Shown: positions 4,407-46,781 of the stretch, one piece after another
Numbering within the stretch: the first letter of the stretch is position 1
How the letters are laid out: every line of letters starts with the position of its first letter
Assembly (NCBI GenBank): GCA_016742275.1
Contig: JACVCD010000008.1
Coordinates: forward strand, 124,001-188,000
DNA: 64,000 nt
From: Gemmatimonadaceae bacterium
GTDB lineage: Bacteria; Gemmatimonadota; Gemmatimonadetes; Gemmatimonadales; Gemmatimonadaceae
Direction: 5' to 3'
Translations under genes and position numbers: made by a program
The notes under the pieces: generated by a model
What the model was told of the DNA's origin: nothing
Database searches by the model: none
The model's input: the letters and a program-made list of their open reading frames with translations, nothing else

Positions 4407-5447
4407 TCACCGGCGCTTGCCGCCCTTCTTCACTGCCTTCTTTGCCGGCTTGGCGGCCTTCTTTGGAGCGGGCTTCTTGGCAACCGCTTTCTTGATGGCC
4501 TTCTTGGCTGGCTTGGCGGCCTTTTTCGGTGCTGCCTTCTTGGGAGCCGCTTTCTTCACCGCCTTGCTGGGGGCGGCCTTCTTCGGAGCGGGCTTACCTG
4601 CGGCCTTCTTGGGCGCTGCCTTCTTGGCCGGATTGGCCGCGGTCTTTGGAGCCGCCTTCTTGGCTGTCGCCTTTTTCGGAGCCGCCTTCTTTGGCTCTGC
4701 CTTGGTGGCCGGAGCCTTGGCCGGAGCTTTCGCAGGAGTCTTCGTTGCCGGCGCTTTTGCAACCGGCGCCTTGGCAGGTGCTTTCGCAGGCGCCTTTGCC
4801 GGAGCCTTTGGTGCAGCAGCGGGCTTGGGCGCCGCAGCCTTTGGAGCCGCCGCCTTGGGTTCAGGTTTGGCTTCGACCACCGCCGGAGCCTCCACCTTCT
4901 TCTCGGCCTTCGGTGCCTTCGGCTTGCTGGCCTTCGGCTTGCTGGCCTTCGGGGCCTTGGGCGCCGGAGCGGGCGCTTCGGCGATCATGTCGTCATCCGA
5001 ACCGCCGATGTCGTCCAGATCACCCAGGCCATCGTCCAGTCCATCATCCACGCCGTCGTCGAGATCGTCGACCTCATCGAGGTCGTCCATCACCGGTTCC
5101 GGCGTTGGCTCCGGCTTCGGGCTCTTGGACTTGGGAGCTGGCTTGGGCGCACCGGGATTCTTGGGCGGACGACCGGGACCACGACGCACGACGGGGCGAC
5201 CAAACAGGTCATCCTCATCATCTTCGTCGTCGATCAGGCCATCATCCTCGTAGCCGTCGTCACCGTCTTCGTCGTCGTCATCCTCGTCGTCATCGTCGGC
5301 GCTGTCCCAGAGGGAATCGCCGTCGTCGGACGAGCTGCCGTACCCATCATCATCGTCATCATCGTCGTACGACGAGCGGCCATAGCCCCCCAGATCATCG
5401 TCGTCGTCGATCAGATGGAGCTTCTCCAACTCGTCGCCACGCGGCAT
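4407..5447 (-). CDS. histone-H1-like protein with acidic N-terminus and AT-hook-like motif
   Basis: 346 residues, almost all low complexity. Residues 14-85 and 120-153 are Asp-rich tracts (runs of five and seven Asp, plus many D/E/G). Between them lies RRGPGRPPK (88-96), a good AT-hook core (GRP flanked by basic residues). From about 158 to the end the protein is built from KAPAKAP- and KKAAPKKA-type repeats like the tails of eukaryotic H1 and bacterial H1-like proteins, ending KKGGKRR. It probably binds or condenses DNA through the basic tail, with the acidic half modulating this. A strong ribosome-binding site (GGGAGG, about six bases before the ATG) and a good promoter precede it. It is the first gene of the kinase/NtrC group. 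An exact function cannot be assigned. Confidence 0.8.
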   Translation of the reverse strand: MPRGDELEKLHLIDDDDDLGGYGRSSYDDDDDDDGYGSSSDDGDSLWDSADDDDEDDDDEDGDDGYEDDGLIDDEDDEDDLFGRPVVRRGPGRPPKNPGAPKPAPKSKSPKPEPTPEPVMDDLDEVDDLDDGVDDGLDDGLGDLDDIGGSDDDMIAEAPAPAPKAPKASKPKASKPKAPKAEKKVEAPAVVEAKPEPKAAAPKAAAPKPAAAPKAPAKAPAKAPAKAPVAKAPATKTPAKAPAKAPATKAEPKKAAPKKATAKKAAPKTAANPAKKAAPKKAAGKPAPKKAAPSKAVKKAAPKKAAPKKAAKPAKKAIKKAVAKKPAPKKAAKPAKKAVKKGGKRR

Positions 5448-5551: not shown

Positions 5552-5569
5552 GGCAAAGCCCAAAGGGGC

Positions 5570-5610
5570 GTAAAGAAACGGCGAACGTAAAGCGACGGCA
5601 ATCGTAAAGG
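5570..5610 (+). repeat. CGTAAAG tandem repeat, locus A (17-bp period)
   Basis: CGTAAAG occurs at 5570-5576, 5587-5593 and 5604-5610, exactly 17 bases apart. The units read CGTAAAGAAACGGCGAA, CGTAAAGCGACGGCAAT and then CGTAAAGGTGTTG. The same 17-base family recurs at 12326 and 46699. It lies between the H1-like promoter and the 3' end of the HD-GYP gene, reading opposite to both genes. Confidence 0.75.
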
Positions 5611-5632: not shown

Positions 5633-6766
5633 TTACGACTGCGGGAGCGTGGGCAAATCCCCGCGTTCGACCACTCGGCGCAGCGCTTCATAGACCTGCG
5701 GCTGTACCAGCTTGCCAGCCTGGGTGTGGAGATAGTCCAACGTGGCCGCGGCCGACATTGGGTCGCGATAGGCCCGCTTTGATGTCAGTGCATCAAACGC
5801 ATCGGCGGCCGTGAGTACGCGGCCTCCAATGGTGATGTCCTCACCCGATCGTCCATGGGGGTAGCCCATGCCGTTCCAGTGCTCGTGGTGGTCACGGATG
5901 AACAGCAGCGCATCGCCCAGATGACCAAGCGGCTGCAAGATCTCGAGGCCGATCTTCACGTGATCCTTCACGTGGGAGAACTCGTCGGCTGTCAGCGGAC
6001 CGTTCTTGTTCAGCACTGATTCACGAATACCGATCTTGCCCACGTCGTGCAGGCGGCCTGCCGTGTGCACCAGCTCGACAACGTGGTCCGACTCGCCCAG
6101 CTCCGCGGCAATGGCGGCGCCCAATTCGGCAACACGCTGTGAATGACCGCGCAAATAGAGGTCCTTGGCTTCCATCGCGTTGATCAGCGTTTCGGCCACA
6201 CTCACCGTGAGTTCGCGCAGCGCGCCCTTCTCGCGCTCAAGCTGTACGGTGCGTAGTGCGACTTCTTCACGAATGAGACGATCGACCGCACGGCGCTCCA
6301 TGGTGCGCATGCGGCGCAGCATGGCACGTTCCACGGCGGCTTGCAGGTCGGGCAGTTCGACGGGCTTTGTGAGATAGTCGAACGCCCCGCTGTTCAATGC
6401 TTCCGTGGCGCTCGAGGCGTCGTTCACCGCCGTGAGCATGATGATGCCAAGGTCGGCGTCACGCTGCAGAGCTTGCGGCACCACTTCGAGTCCAGTCATG
6501 CCCGGCATGCGCAGATCACACAGCATGAGCGCAAAGCGCTGGCGCTCGATGGCCTCGAGGGCGGCGGATCCGGAATCGGCCGCTTCCACTTCGAAACCAC
6601 GGGTACGCAGGAAACGACTCAAGGCGAGTCGGATGGTGGTCTCGTCGTCCACGACGAGAATGCGGCGCAGCGTATCCTCCACCATCGCGGCGCCGGCCAC
6701 TTCAATGGCACGGACCGGATCGATGGGAGAACGAATGGCAGTCATGCTGCTGGCGGGTGTAGTCAT
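5633..6766 (-). CDS. response regulator with HD-GYP c-di-GMP phosphodiesterase domain
   Basis: 377 residues. A receiver (about 35-150) has Asp40/41, phospho-acceptor Asp84 (LMLCDLRMPGMTG) and Lys134. A helical linker follows, then an HD-GYP domain with His240-Asp241 (RLHDVGKIGI), a His pair at 293-294 and the GYP triplet at 301-303 (NGMGYPHG), and 'DAFDALTSKRAYR'. These are the metal- and substrate-binding signatures of RpfG-type enzymes that hydrolyse cyclic di-GMP. The gene overlaps the upstream multi-GAF kinase by 4 bp, so that kinase is the likely phosphodonor. The N-terminal 30 residues are poorly conserved in character and the real start could be Met8 or Met28. Confidence 0.92.
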   Translation of the reverse strand: MTTPASSMTAIRSPIDPVRAIEVAGAAMVEDTLRRILVVDDETTIRLALSRFLRTRGFEVEAADSGSAALEAIERQRFALMLCDLRMPGMTGLEVVPQALQRDADLGIIMLTAVNDASSATEALNSGAFDYLTKPVELPDLQAAVERAMLRRMRTMERRAVDRLIREEVALRTVQLEREKGALRELTVSVAETLINAMEAKDLYLRGHSQRVAELGAAIAAELGESDHVVELVHTAGRLHDVGKIGIRESVLNKNGPLTADEFSHVKDHVKIGLEILQPLGHLGDALLFIRDHHEHWNGMGYPHGRSGEDITIGGRVLTAADAFDALTSKRAYRDPMSAAATLDYLHTQAGKLVQPQVYEALRRVVERGDLPTLPQS

Positions 6767-10101: not shown

Positions 10102-10878
10102 CTACTTGCGCGCCTCGGTTTCCGCGCGTGCGATTTCGGCCCGATGCATTTCGTAGTCTTCCCGACCGGTGGCCAACTCCGTCTGCATCACCTTGAGGAG
10201 GCGGTCGTTGAATGTCTTTTCGCCAGCGACATCCTTGGACATGCGCGCTGCGCGTGCGCCGAGCAGCAAGCCGAGCAGGTTGTTGGGCTCCTGCTGAAGG
10301 ATGGTATCGGCCTGCGCGCGGGCTACCGGCGCGTCGCCGGTGATTTCAGCAATACGGCCATAGTGGTAGCGCTCGTCTGCCGTGGGACGTTCCAGCATTT
10401 CGTGCGATGCCATGGCCATGGGCGCGAAGAAGGCGACCGAGTCGACCTTTCCGAACTCTGCGTACTGCATGATGCGCGTGTACAGCCGATTCGCGCGCTC
10501 GCTCGGCGACAGGTTGTTGATGTCGGGGGCCGGTCCATTCCCCCCGCCCTGTGCGAATGGCGCGCCGCCAGCGGCTGGCCCGTCGATCGCCTGGGTAGGG
10601 AGAGAGTTGGATGAGCCATCGACACTGGAGCCCTTGGCTGCGCCGAAATTCTTGCCGGCGAACATGGCCACCAGCGCCAACAGGGCGACGAAGGCGACGC
10701 CCCAGGGGAGCACCGAGGCCGCACCGCCGGACTGCTGCGATGGCGTGGCGGGCGCGCCCTGACCCATCGGTGTACCGCAGCGATGGCAGAATCGGGCACC
10801 TGCAGAAAGCGCGGCGCCACAGGCCGCGCAAAAGCCGGCACCCGAATTGGGGCGGCTGGAAGCGTTCGGAGAGGTCAT
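10102..10878 (-). CDS. zinc-ribbon membrane protein, function unknown
   Basis: 258 residues. The N-terminus holds a double-CxxC zinc ribbon: CAACG at about 17-21 and CHRCG about 14 residues later. A single hydrophobic helix follows (LPWGVAFVALLALVAMFAG, about 57-75), then a Ser/Gly/Pro linker. The C-terminal half from about 125 is helical, charged and TPR-like (SERANRLYTRIMQYAEFGKVDS ... ARAQADTILQQEPNNLLGLL). The topology suggests a cytoplasmic zinc ribbon, an anchor and a periplasmic helical-repeat domain, perhaps for protein contacts. Only 36 bp separate its start from the proposed glnA start on the other strand. Confidence 0.75.
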   Translation of the reverse strand: MTSPNASSRPNSGAGFCAACGAALSAGARFCHRCGTPMGQGAPATPSQQSGGAASVLPWGVAFVALLALVAMFAGKNFGAAKGSSVDGSSNSLPTQAIDGPAAGGAPFAQGGGNGPAPDINNLSPSERANRLYTRIMQYAEFGKVDSVAFFAPMAMASHEMLERPTADERYHYGRIAEITGDAPVARAQADTILQQEPNNLLGLLLGARAARMSKDVAGEKTFNDRLLKVMQTELATGREDYEMHRAEIARAETEARK

Positions 10879-10914
10879 GAGATTCCAAAGTTAGTAGAAT
10901 TGGTCAGCGAAGTA

Positions 10915-12321
10915 ATGTCGTTCACTGTCGTTCCTCCTTCCGAGCGCTCCTGCGTGGCAACAACCAGCCGTTCTCTCGTCCCCGCGAATCTCACGGGGGC
11001 CACTGCTGCCGACATCCTCGAACTGGCCGAAGCGCAGCAGGTGCGGTTTCTCCGCCTGCAGTTCACGGACATTCTCGGTGTCATCAAGAACGTGGAGATT
11101 CCGAGCTCTCAATTCCGGAAGGCGCTCAAGGGCGACATCATGTTCGACGGTTCGAGCATTGCCGGTTTTGTACGGGTGGAAGAGTCGGATATGCTACTCG
11201 CCCCTGATCTGACGAGCTTTCAGATCTTTCCGTGGGGTGATCCGTCGGCGCGCGTGGGGCGGTTGATCTGCGACGTCACCATGCCGGACGGTTCCCCGTT
11301 TGCCGGTGATCCGCGCACCGTGCTCAAGCGCCAGCTGGCCCGGGCCGCCGAACAGGGGTTCGTAATGAATGCCGGCATGGAAGCGGAGTTCTTCCTCTTC
11401 AAGTCGACATCCGACGGTCGACCCGGCACTGATACGCATGATGTGGGCGGCTACTTCGATCTGGCGCCAATGGACCTCGGCGAAGATGCGCGTCGCGCGA
11501 TCGTGGACGCGCTTGAGCAACTCGGCTTCGAAGTGGAGGGCGCGCACCACGAAGTGGCGCACGGGCAGCACGAGATCGATTTCCGCTACGCGGATGCACT
11601 GCGCACGGCGGACAACATCGCCACGTTCCGTTTTGTCGTGAAGCAGGTGGCGCGTCAGTTCGGTCTCACCGCGTCGTTCATGCCGAAGCCGGTGCACGGG
11701 CAGAATGGCAGCGGCATGCACACGCATCAGAGTCTGTTCAAGGGCGGCCAGAATGCGTTCTGGGATCCGCAGCGGGAATGGTCACTCAGCATTACGGCGC
11801 TGCATTACATCGGTGGTCTGCTCAAGCACGCGCGGGCGATGACTGCAGTGACGAACCCGTTGGTGAACAGCTACAAGCGACTGGTGCCTGGATTCGAAGC
11901 CCCGGTGAACGTGGCGTGGAGCATGCGGAATCGCTCACCGATGATTCGTGTGCCAGAGCGCCGTGGGTCGGGCACACGTCTCGAGCTGCGCACACCGGAT
12001 CCGTCGGCCAATCCGTATCTGGCGTTGACGGTGATGCTGGCAGCCGGTCTCGATGGCCTGGCAACGCAGGCGGATTGGCGTGAGCCGGTCAACACAAACA
12101 TCTGGGAGATGTCGTATCGCGAGCGGCGTCGGCTTCGTGTGGACGATTTGCCGACGTCTCTCTCCGAGGCGTGTGATGAGCTTGAGAAAGACGATGTGAT
12201 TCAGGCCGCACTGGGTGAGCACATCACGCAGCAGTTCCTGGCCGCCAAGCGGGCGGAGTGGCGGGAGTACAGTGAGCAGGTGACGGCGTGGGAACTTGGG
12301 CAGTACTTGGCTAGGTATTGA
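10915..12321 (+). CDS. glnA: glutamine synthetase, type I (GSI-alpha-like)
   Basis: 468 residues from the ATG at 10915. It makes glutamine from glutamate, ammonia and ATP. GS signatures are in order: MFDGSSIAGF, NAGMEAEFFLF, HHEVAHGQHEID, the ATP-binding GQNGSGMHTHQS, and NPLVNSYKRLVPGFEAPVNV followed by RLELRTPDPSANPYLA. Where enzymes controlled by adenylylation carry the Tyr motif NLYDLPPEE, this protein has WEMSYRERRRLRVDDLPTSL, so the target Tyr appears absent. That suggests the GSI-alpha class, controlled by feedback or other proteins. There is no Shine-Dalgarno sequence. A GTG at 10954 would give a longer gap to the divergent zinc-ribbon gene and is an alternative start. Confidence 0.93.
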   Translation: MSFTVVPPSERSCVATTSRSLVPANLTGATAADILELAEAQQVRFLRLQFTDILGVIKNVEIPSSQFRKALKGDIMFDGSSIAGFVRVEESDMLLAPDLTSFQIFPWGDPSARVGRLICDVTMPDGSPFAGDPRTVLKRQLARAAEQGFVMNAGMEAEFFLFKSTSDGRPGTDTHDVGGYFDLAPMDLGEDARRAIVDALEQLGFEVEGAHHEVAHGQHEIDFRYADALRTADNIATFRFVVKQVARQFGLTASFMPKPVHGQNGSGMHTHQSLFKGGQNAFWDPQREWSLSITALHYIGGLLKHARAMTAVTNPLVNSYKRLVPGFEAPVNVAWSMRNRSPMIRVPERRGSGTRLELRTPDPSANPYLALTVMLAAGLDGLATQADWREPVNTNIWEMSYRERRRLRVDDLPTSLSEACDELEKDDVIQAALGEHITQQFLAAKRAEWREYSEQVTAWELGQYLARY

Positions 12322-12382
12322 ACTGCGTAAAGGAACAGCGGGCGTAAAGGAGGGGTGGGCGTAAAGAGAATGCGGGCGGGAC
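12322..12382 (+). repeat. CGTAAAG tandem repeat, locus B, directly after glnA
   Basis: CGTAAAG at 12326-12332, 12343-12349 and 12360-12366, 17 bases apart, followed by a degenerate tail TGCGGGCGGGA and a further CGTAA at 12386. The first unit begins five bases after the glnA stop codon. Its opening AACTGCGTAAAG and the tail TGCGGGCGGGA are also found at locus C (46695-46781). Confidence 0.8.
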
Positions 12383-12412
12383 GAGCGTAAGCTGAACTGC
12401 GACGGAGGGTGT

Positions 12413-28134: not shown

Positions 28135-29160
28135 ATGTCTTCGAAGACTTCGCGTCGATTGCTTGCCCTTTGTGTTGCAGTCCTTGGGCTGCCCATCGAT
28201 ATGCATGGTCAGGACGGAGACGGGGTGAAGCACGGCATTGTATTCGGCAATGCGCCCAGTGTTGCCGGTATCCGATTCACCTTCCGGGACACTGAGCGTG
28301 TTCGGCGCACCGCGGGCGTGCATGTCAGTGTGTGGTCGCCGAAGGAAGGCGTCACTGGAGCCAATGTGACCGGTCTGACGCTTGGGCTTCCTGTGGCAGG
28401 TGGCAATGAACTGCACGGGCTTACGCTCGGTGTGTTTGGTGCCGGAGCCAATCATGAGGTGACGGGGATCAGCGTGGGCGGTCTCGGCATCGGTGCCGGA
28501 GGCAATGTCGGGGGTATCGCTATTGGTGGTCTGGGCATTGGTTCGGGCGGTGGATTGCGCGGCATCGCGATTGGCGGACTTGGTGCCGCTACGGGAGGCG
28601 ATGTGCGTGGTCTGGCCATTGGTGGCCTCGGCGTGGGTGCCGGCGGCGATGCGCGTGGAATTCTCGTCGGAGGTCTTGGGGCCGGCGCTGGCGGCAGCGT
28701 GCGCGGCCTGGCTGTTGGTGGCCTTGGAGTCGGAGCTGGTGGTGGCCTGCACGGCATTGCGATTGGCGGTCTCGGCGTAGGCACCGGGGGCGACCTGTCC
28801 GGCATTGCCATTGGCGGACTTGGCGTAGGCAGTGGTGGCGAACTGCGCGGTCTTGCCATTGGTGGTCTTGGGGTTGGTGCCCCGAAAATTCACGGCACCG
28901 CAATCGCCCCAATGGTTGGCGCCAAGGACATGTGGACGCCCGTTTCGGTGTCAGCGTTGATGCGCCAGAACGTGGACGGTCACTTCCGTGGGTTCAGCGT
29001 GTCCGGTGTGCACGCCATGCGCGGAACGCAGCACGGGCTAGTGCTGGGCATCGTGAACTACGCTCACACACTAGACGGCGTGCAGGTCGGCGTGATCAAC
29101 ATTGCCCGCAATGCGCGGATGAAAGTGATGCCGGTGATGAACGTAGCGCGGGCGAAGTAG
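28135..29160 (+). CDS. secreted glycine-rich repeat protein with LA_2272-like C-terminus
   Basis: 341 residues. A signal peptide (MSSKTSRRLLALCVAVLGL...) is followed by a short linker. Nine consecutive units of exactly 16 residues, pattern G-(I/L)-A-(I/V)-G-G-L-G-x-G-x-G-G-x-x-x, occupy residues 111-254, preceded by two degenerate units (GLTLG...). After the repeats the tail (HGLVLGIVNYAHTLDGVQVGVINIARN) resembles the surface repeats of Leptospira LA_2272-type proteins. The regular short hydrophobic/Gly period suggests a stacked beta structure at the cell surface. The ATG at 28135 was chosen over in-frame codons from 28102 because it begins the signal peptide. Confidence 0.75.
   Translation: MSSKTSRRLLALCVAVLGLPIDMHGQDGDGVKHGIVFGNAPSVAGIRFTFRDTERVRRTAGVHVSVWSPKEGVTGANVTGLTLGLPVAGGNELHGLTLGVFGAGANHEVTGISVGGLGIGAGGNVGGIAIGGLGIGSGGGLRGIAIGGLGAATGGDVRGLAIGGLGVGAGGDARGILVGGLGAGAGGSVRGLAVGGLGVGAGGGLHGIAIGGLGVGTGGDLSGIAIGGLGVGSGGELRGLAIGGLGVGAPKIHGTAIAPMVGAKDMWTPVSVSALMRQNVDGHFRGFSVSGVHAMRGTQHGLVLGIVNYAHTLDGVQVGVINIARNARMKVMPVMNVARAK
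28465..28896 (+). repeat. nine in-frame 48-bp repeats inside the surface-protein gene
   Basis: The nine protein units correspond to 9 x 48 bp with no indels. Units differ mainly at the variable codons after GGLG and before the next G, so the period is conserved while the sequence drifts. Copy-number change by slippage or recombination would stay in frame. Confidence 0.8.
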
Positions 29161-45797: not shown

Positions 45798-46703
45798 ATG
45801 ACTGGCATCATCACGGGTACCATGACTTCGTCCCGCTCGCGTTCAACTGATCCCACGACGGCTCCCTCCGCGGACATGGTGGCCCGCATCGAGCGCGTGG
45901 CGACCTATATCGCGGCGCATGCCGATGAGCCGTTGCCGCTGGCTCGTCTCGCAGGTGAGGCATCGATGAGTCCCACGCATCTGCAGCGGGTATTCACGCG
46001 AGTGATGGGCGTGAGTCCCAAGGCGTACCAGAGCGCCCAGCGACTTGAACGATTCAAGACGAATCTTCGCGACGGTCATTCGGTGCTCGATGCGACCTTC
46101 GATGCGGGCTACGGCAGTACGAGTCGCATCTACGAACAGGTGACTGGCGGACTCGGCATGACACCGCAGGCGTATCGCGCGGGTGGCGCTGGTGAAGTCA
46201 TCACATTCGCTGTACGCGATACCGACTTTGGTGCGCTGCTTATGGCCGCAACGGAGCGTGGTGTCTGCCAGGTCGAGTTTGGAGATGCTGCGAGTGAATT
46301 GATCGCGCGACTGCAGGCGCAGTTTCCGAATGCCACACATCTGCCGGCATCAGAGGCGGCGCGTGAACCGCTTGATGCCTGGATGGATGCATTGCAGGCG
46401 CATGTGCTCTCGAAGGCCCCGAGTCCGGAGTTGCCGCTCGATCTGCGTGGTACGGCGTTTCAGATCAAGGTGTGGCGGTTTCTTCTCAGTGTGAAACCGG
46501 GTCGGGTTGTCAGCTATGGCGAGATCGCTGAGGCAATCGGCCATCCCGATGCGGTGCGGGCGGTGGGCAGCGCGTGCGGCGCCAATCGCATTGCGGTACT
46601 GGTGCCTTGCCATCGAGCGCTGCGGGCGGATGGGGGGCTTGGGGGGTACCGGTGGGGGATCGAGCGGAAGCTGGTGCTGCTTGGGAATGAGAGAACTGCG
46701 TAA
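45798..46703 (+). CDS. Ada-like protein: AraC-type HTH fused to O6-methylguanine-DNA methyltransferase
   Basis: 301 residues. An AraC helix-turn-helix (about 27-127: RLAGEASMSPTHLQRVFTRVMGVSPKAYQ) is joined to a methyltransferase domain (about 135-300) with the acceptor Cys271 in VLVPCHRAL and the surrounding FQIKVWRFL ... GRVVSYGEIAEAIGHP. It transfers alkyl groups from O6-methylguanine to itself. The N-terminal metal-binding domain of E. coli Ada, which senses methyl phosphotriesters, is absent. The last two codons and the TAA stop fall inside the CGTAAAG repeat array. The start ATG is 108 bp from the divergent hydrolase start. Confidence 0.88.
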   Translation: MTGIITGTMTSSRSRSTDPTTAPSADMVARIERVATYIAAHADEPLPLARLAGEASMSPTHLQRVFTRVMGVSPKAYQSAQRLERFKTNLRDGHSVLDATFDAGYGSTSRIYEQVTGGLGMTPQAYRAGGAGEVITFAVRDTDFGALLMAATERGVCQVEFGDAASELIARLQAQFPNATHLPASEAAREPLDAWMDALQAHVLSKAPSPELPLDLRGTAFQIKVWRFLLSVKPGRVVSYGEIAEAIGHPDAVRAVGSACGANRIAVLVPCHRALRADGGLGGYRWGIERKLVLLGNERTA

Positions 46704-46781
46704 AGAAACGGCGGGCGTAAAGCACACGCAGGCGTAAAGGAACCGCACACGAGACGGCGTAAAGAAACTGCGGGCGGGATT
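46695..46781 (+). repeat. CGTAAAG tandem repeat, locus C, overlapping the ada-like stop codon
   Basis: CGTAAAG at 46699-46705, 46716-46722, 46733-46739 and 46758-46764 (17, 17, then 25 bases apart), followed by TGCGGGCGGGA as at locus B. The TAA of the first unit is the stop codon of the preceding gene. Confidence 0.82.

Follow-up and report, generated by a model that had tools for sequence, protein, structure and literature searches.

Why should the heptamer CGTAAAG recur every 17 bp at three separate intergenic loci of one bacterial genome? The window, meaning the whole stretch of 64,000 nucleotides analysed here, is part of a 4.57-Mb genome in 33 contigs (labelled G000). It contains 11 copies of CGTAAAG against 2.1 expected; 10 of the 11 lie inside the three arrays listed as loci A, B and C in Table 1, and all exact CGTAAAG pairs at 17-bp spacing fall within them. 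The units begin at 5569, 5586 and 5603 in locus A, at 12326, 12343 and 12360 in locus B, and at 46699, 46716 and 46733 in locus C, where a fourth unit follows at 46758 after a step of 25 bp rather than 17. The periodicity described in an earlier sequence-only reading of this DNA is thus confirmed at all three places, as are the entry GAACTGCGTAAAG and the exit TGCGGGCGGGA that it had noted as common to loci B and C.

Table 1. Arrays, neighbouring genes and a further repeat in the window.
Feature	Positions	Strand	Remarks
Locus A: three CGTAAAG units at 17-bp steps	5569–5609	+	Antisense to both minus-strand neighbour genes
Locus B: three CGTAAAG units at 17-bp steps and a degenerate CGTAAGC	12326–12392	+	Sense
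Locus C: three CGTAAAG units at 17-bp steps, a GCACACGAGAC core, then a fourth CGTAAAG	46699–46764	+	Sense
Stop codon TAA of ORF 45798–46703	46701–46703	+	Within first CGTAAAG of locus C
Glutamine-synthetase-like ORF	10783–12321	+	Upstream of locus B; start uncertain; named from sequence
O6-methylguanine-DNA methyltransferase/Ada-like ORF	45798–46703	+	Upstream of locus C; named from sequence
Response-regulator/HD-GYP-like ORF	5633–6766	-	Stop 23 bp from inner end of locus A; named from sequence
Lys/Ala/Pro-rich histone-H1-like ORF	4407–5447	-	Predicted start 121 bp from outer end of locus A
48-bp tandem repeat, 2.6 copies, 80% matches	28747–28871		Period a multiple of three; possibly coding

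Locus B starts 4 bp past the stop codon of the glutamine-synthetase-like ORF. At locus C the array and the gene overlap, and in the orthologs of the Ada-like ORF from two congeneric relatives, G001 and G022, the stop codon is likewise the TAA of their first unit. The ORF beside locus A combines an acidic N-terminal half with a long, Lys/Ala/Pro-rich, histone-H1-like C-terminal half.

The three arrays belong to a family dispersed over the genome. The pattern CGTAAAG-N10-CGTAAAG, with at most one mismatch, has 30 matches genome-wide versus 6 for its reversed control, and CGTAARG-N5-30-CGTAARG has 96 versus 11 for the reversed pattern, a few of these pair matches evidently being chance occurrences in coding sequence. 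The matches group into about 33 arrays (about 30 to 35), nearly all intergenic. The suspicion of a dispersed intergenic repeat family, occurring at a non-random frequency, was therefore correct. Furthermore, the family proves to be modular, being composed of CGTAAGG units (14 or 15 bp), CGTAAAG units (17 bp), CGGGAAG units and a GCGAGAC core. After a CGTAAGG unit there is mostly T(T/G)G or TGA, after a CGTAAAG or CGGGAAG unit often (A/G)AACNGC, and the core ACGCGAGACNGCG forms the inner end of arrays. Steps between units measure 14, 15 or 17 bp, with 17 mostly after CGTAAAG and 14–15 after CGTAAGG; of these, 14 corresponds to two heptamers, and 15 and 17 are no multiple of seven. By inspection, GGG tracts are absent from the CGTAARG core, which hence lacks G-tracts of the quadruplex type. 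The CGTAAGG and CGGGAAG units, along with the inverted pairs and palindromes described below, lie outside the window and were overlooked in the first reading.

The placement of the arrays follows a simple rule, as judged against our own ORF predictions with a codon score, errors included. Single arms mostly start near a gene edge and run outward, either in sense past a stop codon or in antisense; the antisense arms make up about one third of the single arms and lie mostly just upstream of a start codon. On hand reading, the outer end was closer than the inner end to the gene boundary in 20 of 25 single arms (sign test, P = 0.004), and a repeat strand that leaves the nearest ORF within 50 bp fits 20 of the 25 single arms and all 14 inverted pairs. 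Locus A, 121 bp from the ORF start, is an exception. The purine-rich strand of the array points outward into the gap, and arrays often overlap the stop codon of the adjoining gene. Where both edges of one gap are occupied, the arrays face each other and produce a long palindrome.

Eight such inverted pairs occur in G000 and 14 over G000, G001 and G022 together, yielding palindromes of 130–350 bp that lie mostly between convergent genes. In these pairs CGTAARG is outermost by 14:0. Compared with shuffled sequence, the palindromes are far more strongly folded (z −10 to −30), and for single arms no fold beyond chance is seen (z about 0); the hairpin is therefore a product of two facing arms and not a property of the family. 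Accordingly, the earlier statement that units are not palindromic holds for one unit and fails for the arrays, which pair into long palindromes at many loci beyond the window. The suggestion of an RNA 3' element also fails as a general reading, given that about one third of single arms are antisense and that single arms lack a fold beyond chance. Arms are somewhat more alike within than between palindromes (P = 0.0075, or P = 0.05 without the most extreme one), which could point to a selected hairpin. The arrays have no match in Rfam, and in several slots an array lies beside an intact hairpin. Intrinsic termination was rejected for loci B and C, where no stem-loop with a T run is found; single arms are moreover unstructured. 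One pair of facing arms encloses a four-helix-bundle gene (PF05635, 23S rRNA IVP type; G000:C31:103132-103888), which was considered as a carrier and dropped because it has 6 copies in the genome and because apparently the same gene occupies this slot, without the arrays, in a sister-clade genome, G028. In that G028 slot, GGGTTA-type repeats apparently stand in place of the arms.

Comparison with relatives shows which features of the arrays are shared. As an array, the 17-bp form was found in none of the 99 relatives searched. The 14/15-bp CGTAAGG form makes many arrays in G001 and G022, many of them in slots that are also filled in G000, and these two genomes form a clade with G000 (100/100 support, one gene); the other genus members searched are without clear arrays of the CGTAARG motif. 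Thus the family has counterparts in relatives, and the exact 17-mer singled out in the sequence-only reading has none. A wider contig search gave no match to an exact 23-base pattern; for the CGTAAGG form, it returned the record of G022 itself (JACVCT, Gemmatimonadaceae) and scattered matches in other phyla. Several of the latter are separate tandem arrays of the CGTAAGG/TGTAAAG heptamer type, in Anaerolineales, Deltaproteobacteria, Actinomycetota and Bacteroides MAGs, and some of them have an inverted array close by, so that the CGTAARG core recurs in unrelated phyla.

For a slot-by-slot comparison, the gene adjacent to each of 29 arrays in G000 was taken and its ortholog sought in relatives. 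At 18 of about 26 ortholog-bearing slots an array is present in G001 or G022, with the same orientation in 18 of 18 and a different copy number. The slot of locus A holds a CGTAAGG/CGGGAAG array in G001, unchanged in orientation to the neighbouring gene; that of locus B holds CGTAAGG arrays in G001 and G022, again with orientation unchanged; and that of locus C holds CGTAAGG/CGGGAAG arrays in both. No CGTAARG array is present in the compared slots of G028. Several other slots carry an array in G000 and lack one in G001 and G022 (for example C8:38558, C13:25024 and C28:72453), showing that arrays have also been gained or lost. Among the sister slots, which do not align as clean empties, neither a clean empty site nor a target duplication was seen.

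What differs between these genomes is the unit itself. In the compared slots, CGTAAAG, CGTAAGG and CGGGAAG number 82, 43 and 15 in G000, as against 1, 55 and 24 in G001 and 0, 49 and 21 in G022. CGTAAAG is the outermost unit in 22 of 35 arms in G000 versus 0 of 36 in G001 and G022 (P = 1e-9), and in shared slots only, in 13 of 21 versus 0 of 21 (P = 2e-5); these P values are optimistic because arms are not independent events, but the difference is nonetheless spread across unlinked slots. Similarly, 17-bp steps number 29 in G000 and 0 in G001 and G022. Whole-array similarity gives no clear sign of concerted evolution, the median paralog exceeding the ortholog in just 9 of 18 slots.

Some of the same gaps house other repeat families in sister species. 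The convergent gap between an M28-peptidase and an S9-peptidase gene contains CGTAARG palindromes in G000, G001 and G022, palindromes of GCAGGRR-type units in G015, G004 and G003, and an ordinary hairpin in several other relatives. Arrays of RCAGRRR have 47 matches in G015, 16 in G028 and 9 in G004, with a reversed control of 0 in these genomes. Palindromes of still other units fill two further slots, C15:247221 (in G001) and C15:233762 (in both G001 and G022), and the C18:136326 slot in G028 has an AACTGAN-type palindrome. In those other families of sister species that were read, the purine-rich strand likewise exits the gene edge. Within the clade, the locus B slot of G022 (G022:C57) carries a long AGAGATC-type heptamer array downstream of its CGTAAGG array, so one gap can house two families. 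In G002, of the same genus, the reversed control GACRRRR itself occurs in tandem (25 + 36 matches, in that genome alone), which seems to reflect another heptamer family there.

The sequence-only reading knew of no described element of this form. This was too strong, as heptamer repeats that obey the same rules of placement at ORF edges have been published: the GGGAATC and GGGGA(C/T)T repeats of Xanthomonas and Nostoc, which have no link to mobile elements (PMC4692102). Like the present arrays, GGGAATC repeats are intergenic, lie closest to the 5' neighbouring ORF irrespective of its direction, run in sense after a stop and in antisense before a start, overlap stop codons, occur singly or as inverted pairs, and keep the same slots in sister species with changes in length. 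Conversely, the present arrays consist of 14/15/17-bp units with a modular order and a core instead of a clean heptamer, have no quadruplex G-tract in the conserved core, form palindromes mostly between convergent genes, and differ in unit lineage-wide. The TAACTGA direct repeats of Beggiatoaceae, Cyanobacteria and Bacteroidetes similarly form short heptamer-type intergenic arrays at many loci; they are mostly direct and lie just upstream of starts, whereas CGTAARG arrays are often downstream of stops and inverted (PMC4679880). The AACTGAN family in G028 is related to these TAACTGA repeats. A search of the literature on intergenic palindromes of Gemmatimonadota found nothing on point.

Other known elements resemble the arrays in part. 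Pneumococcal BOX elements, regarded as a slowly moving parasite, are composite, with internal tandem modules of variable number, and form a stem-loop when complete (PMC3049150). They have distinct boxA and boxC ends, whereas the present arrays carry one and the same unit, in inverted orientation, at either outer end and commonly occur as single arms; for want of such ends, a BOX element was rejected. REP/REPIN elements are likewise extragenic, hairpin-forming inverted doublets and are associated with RAYT (Y1) transposases (PMC3116915). Unlike REPINs, CGTAARG arms are tandem arrays, and a profile search in which the controls matched found no Y1 transposase (PF01797) in the genome, so this identification was rejected as well. 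CRISPR was rejected on the gaps between heptamers, which are degenerate and 10 bp long instead of unique spacers of 25–40 bp, in agreement with the earlier remark that spacers are not of CRISPR length.

Taken together, these comparisons make it probable that the arrays belong with the intergenic, ORF-edge heptamer repeats of Xanthomonas and Nostoc, grown by slippage and present here in a modular 14/15/17-bp form. The assignment is made because placement, stop-codon overlap, inverted pairs and slot conservation all match. At gene edges that tolerate it, template switching and replication slippage may lengthen and shorten the arrays, and variant units may be copied from slot to slot, so that the arrays of one lineage would change in concert. 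On this view the stop codons, like the hairpins where genes converge, would be side effects, tolerated or occasionally used, and not the reason for the arrays. Several points count against this explanation: slippage alone cannot account for one lineage-specific unit at unlinked slots, the copying step being unseen; whole-array similarity gives no clear sign of concerted evolution; the greater likeness of arms within a palindrome could mean a selected hairpin; and the conserved slots and orientation could instead reflect function.

In the main rival explanation, the arrays serve a sequence-specific DNA- or RNA-binding protein as insulator, nucleoid or post-transcriptional sites, and the lineage-wide difference between CGTAAGG and CGTAAAG would reflect a change in the specificity of this protein. 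The evidence speaks neither for nor against the nucleoid-protein site array that the sequence-only reading had suggested. Conservation of slot and orientation in all 18 shared slots, the coordinated difference in the outer unit and a step typical of each unit type all suit such a factor. Yet steps of 14–17 bp do not hold one helical face, the sites face either way with respect to genes whose functions are unrelated, the remaining genus members searched are without clear motif arrays, and no candidate protein turned up in a non-systematic look; we regard a binding factor as unlikely. Alternatively, the palindromes might be RNA elements that terminate transcription in both directions or stabilise 3' ends where genes converge. 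This would explain their deep folding, their location mostly in convergent gaps, which in sister species contain an ordinary hairpin or a different palindrome, and the tendency of arms inside one element to match. This proposal is quite unlikely, since most arrays are unstructured single arms, many of them antisense, intact hairpins adjoin the array in several slots, and neither an Rfam match nor, at loci B and C, a T-tract terminator is present.

Defined ends, a conserved core, inverted arms, dispersed copies and slots filled in G000 and not in its relatives are also what a non-autonomous mobile element of MITE, REPIN or BOX-like type, bounded by CGTAARG, would show, single arms being its deleted halves. 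Against this stand the missing Y1 transposase, the fact that no clean empty site or target duplication was seen, the variable unit number and the unrelated units that sister species arrange in the same geometry, and such an element is decidedly unlikely. It is highly improbable that the polarity and the lineage-wide unit express one active process at DNA ends or at gaps between genes, whether a binding factor with shifted specificity or a telomere-like addition of short units at broken, rejoined ends, the latter of which would yield facing arrays. Chance repetition in GC-rich sequence, for which nothing speaks beyond the shortness of each array, is refuted by the shuffles, the reversed controls and the conserved slots, and its likelihood is next to nil.

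Short repeats at ORF edges are found in several groups of bacteria that are not related to one another. This genus provides a comparative test, in that a given gap can hold different repeat families in different species with the geometry constant, and in that one clade shares slots and orientation but shows a genome-wide difference in the unit. The comparison thus separates what is constrained, namely place and polarity, from what is unconstrained, namely sequence, and any explanation of these repeats must meet that.
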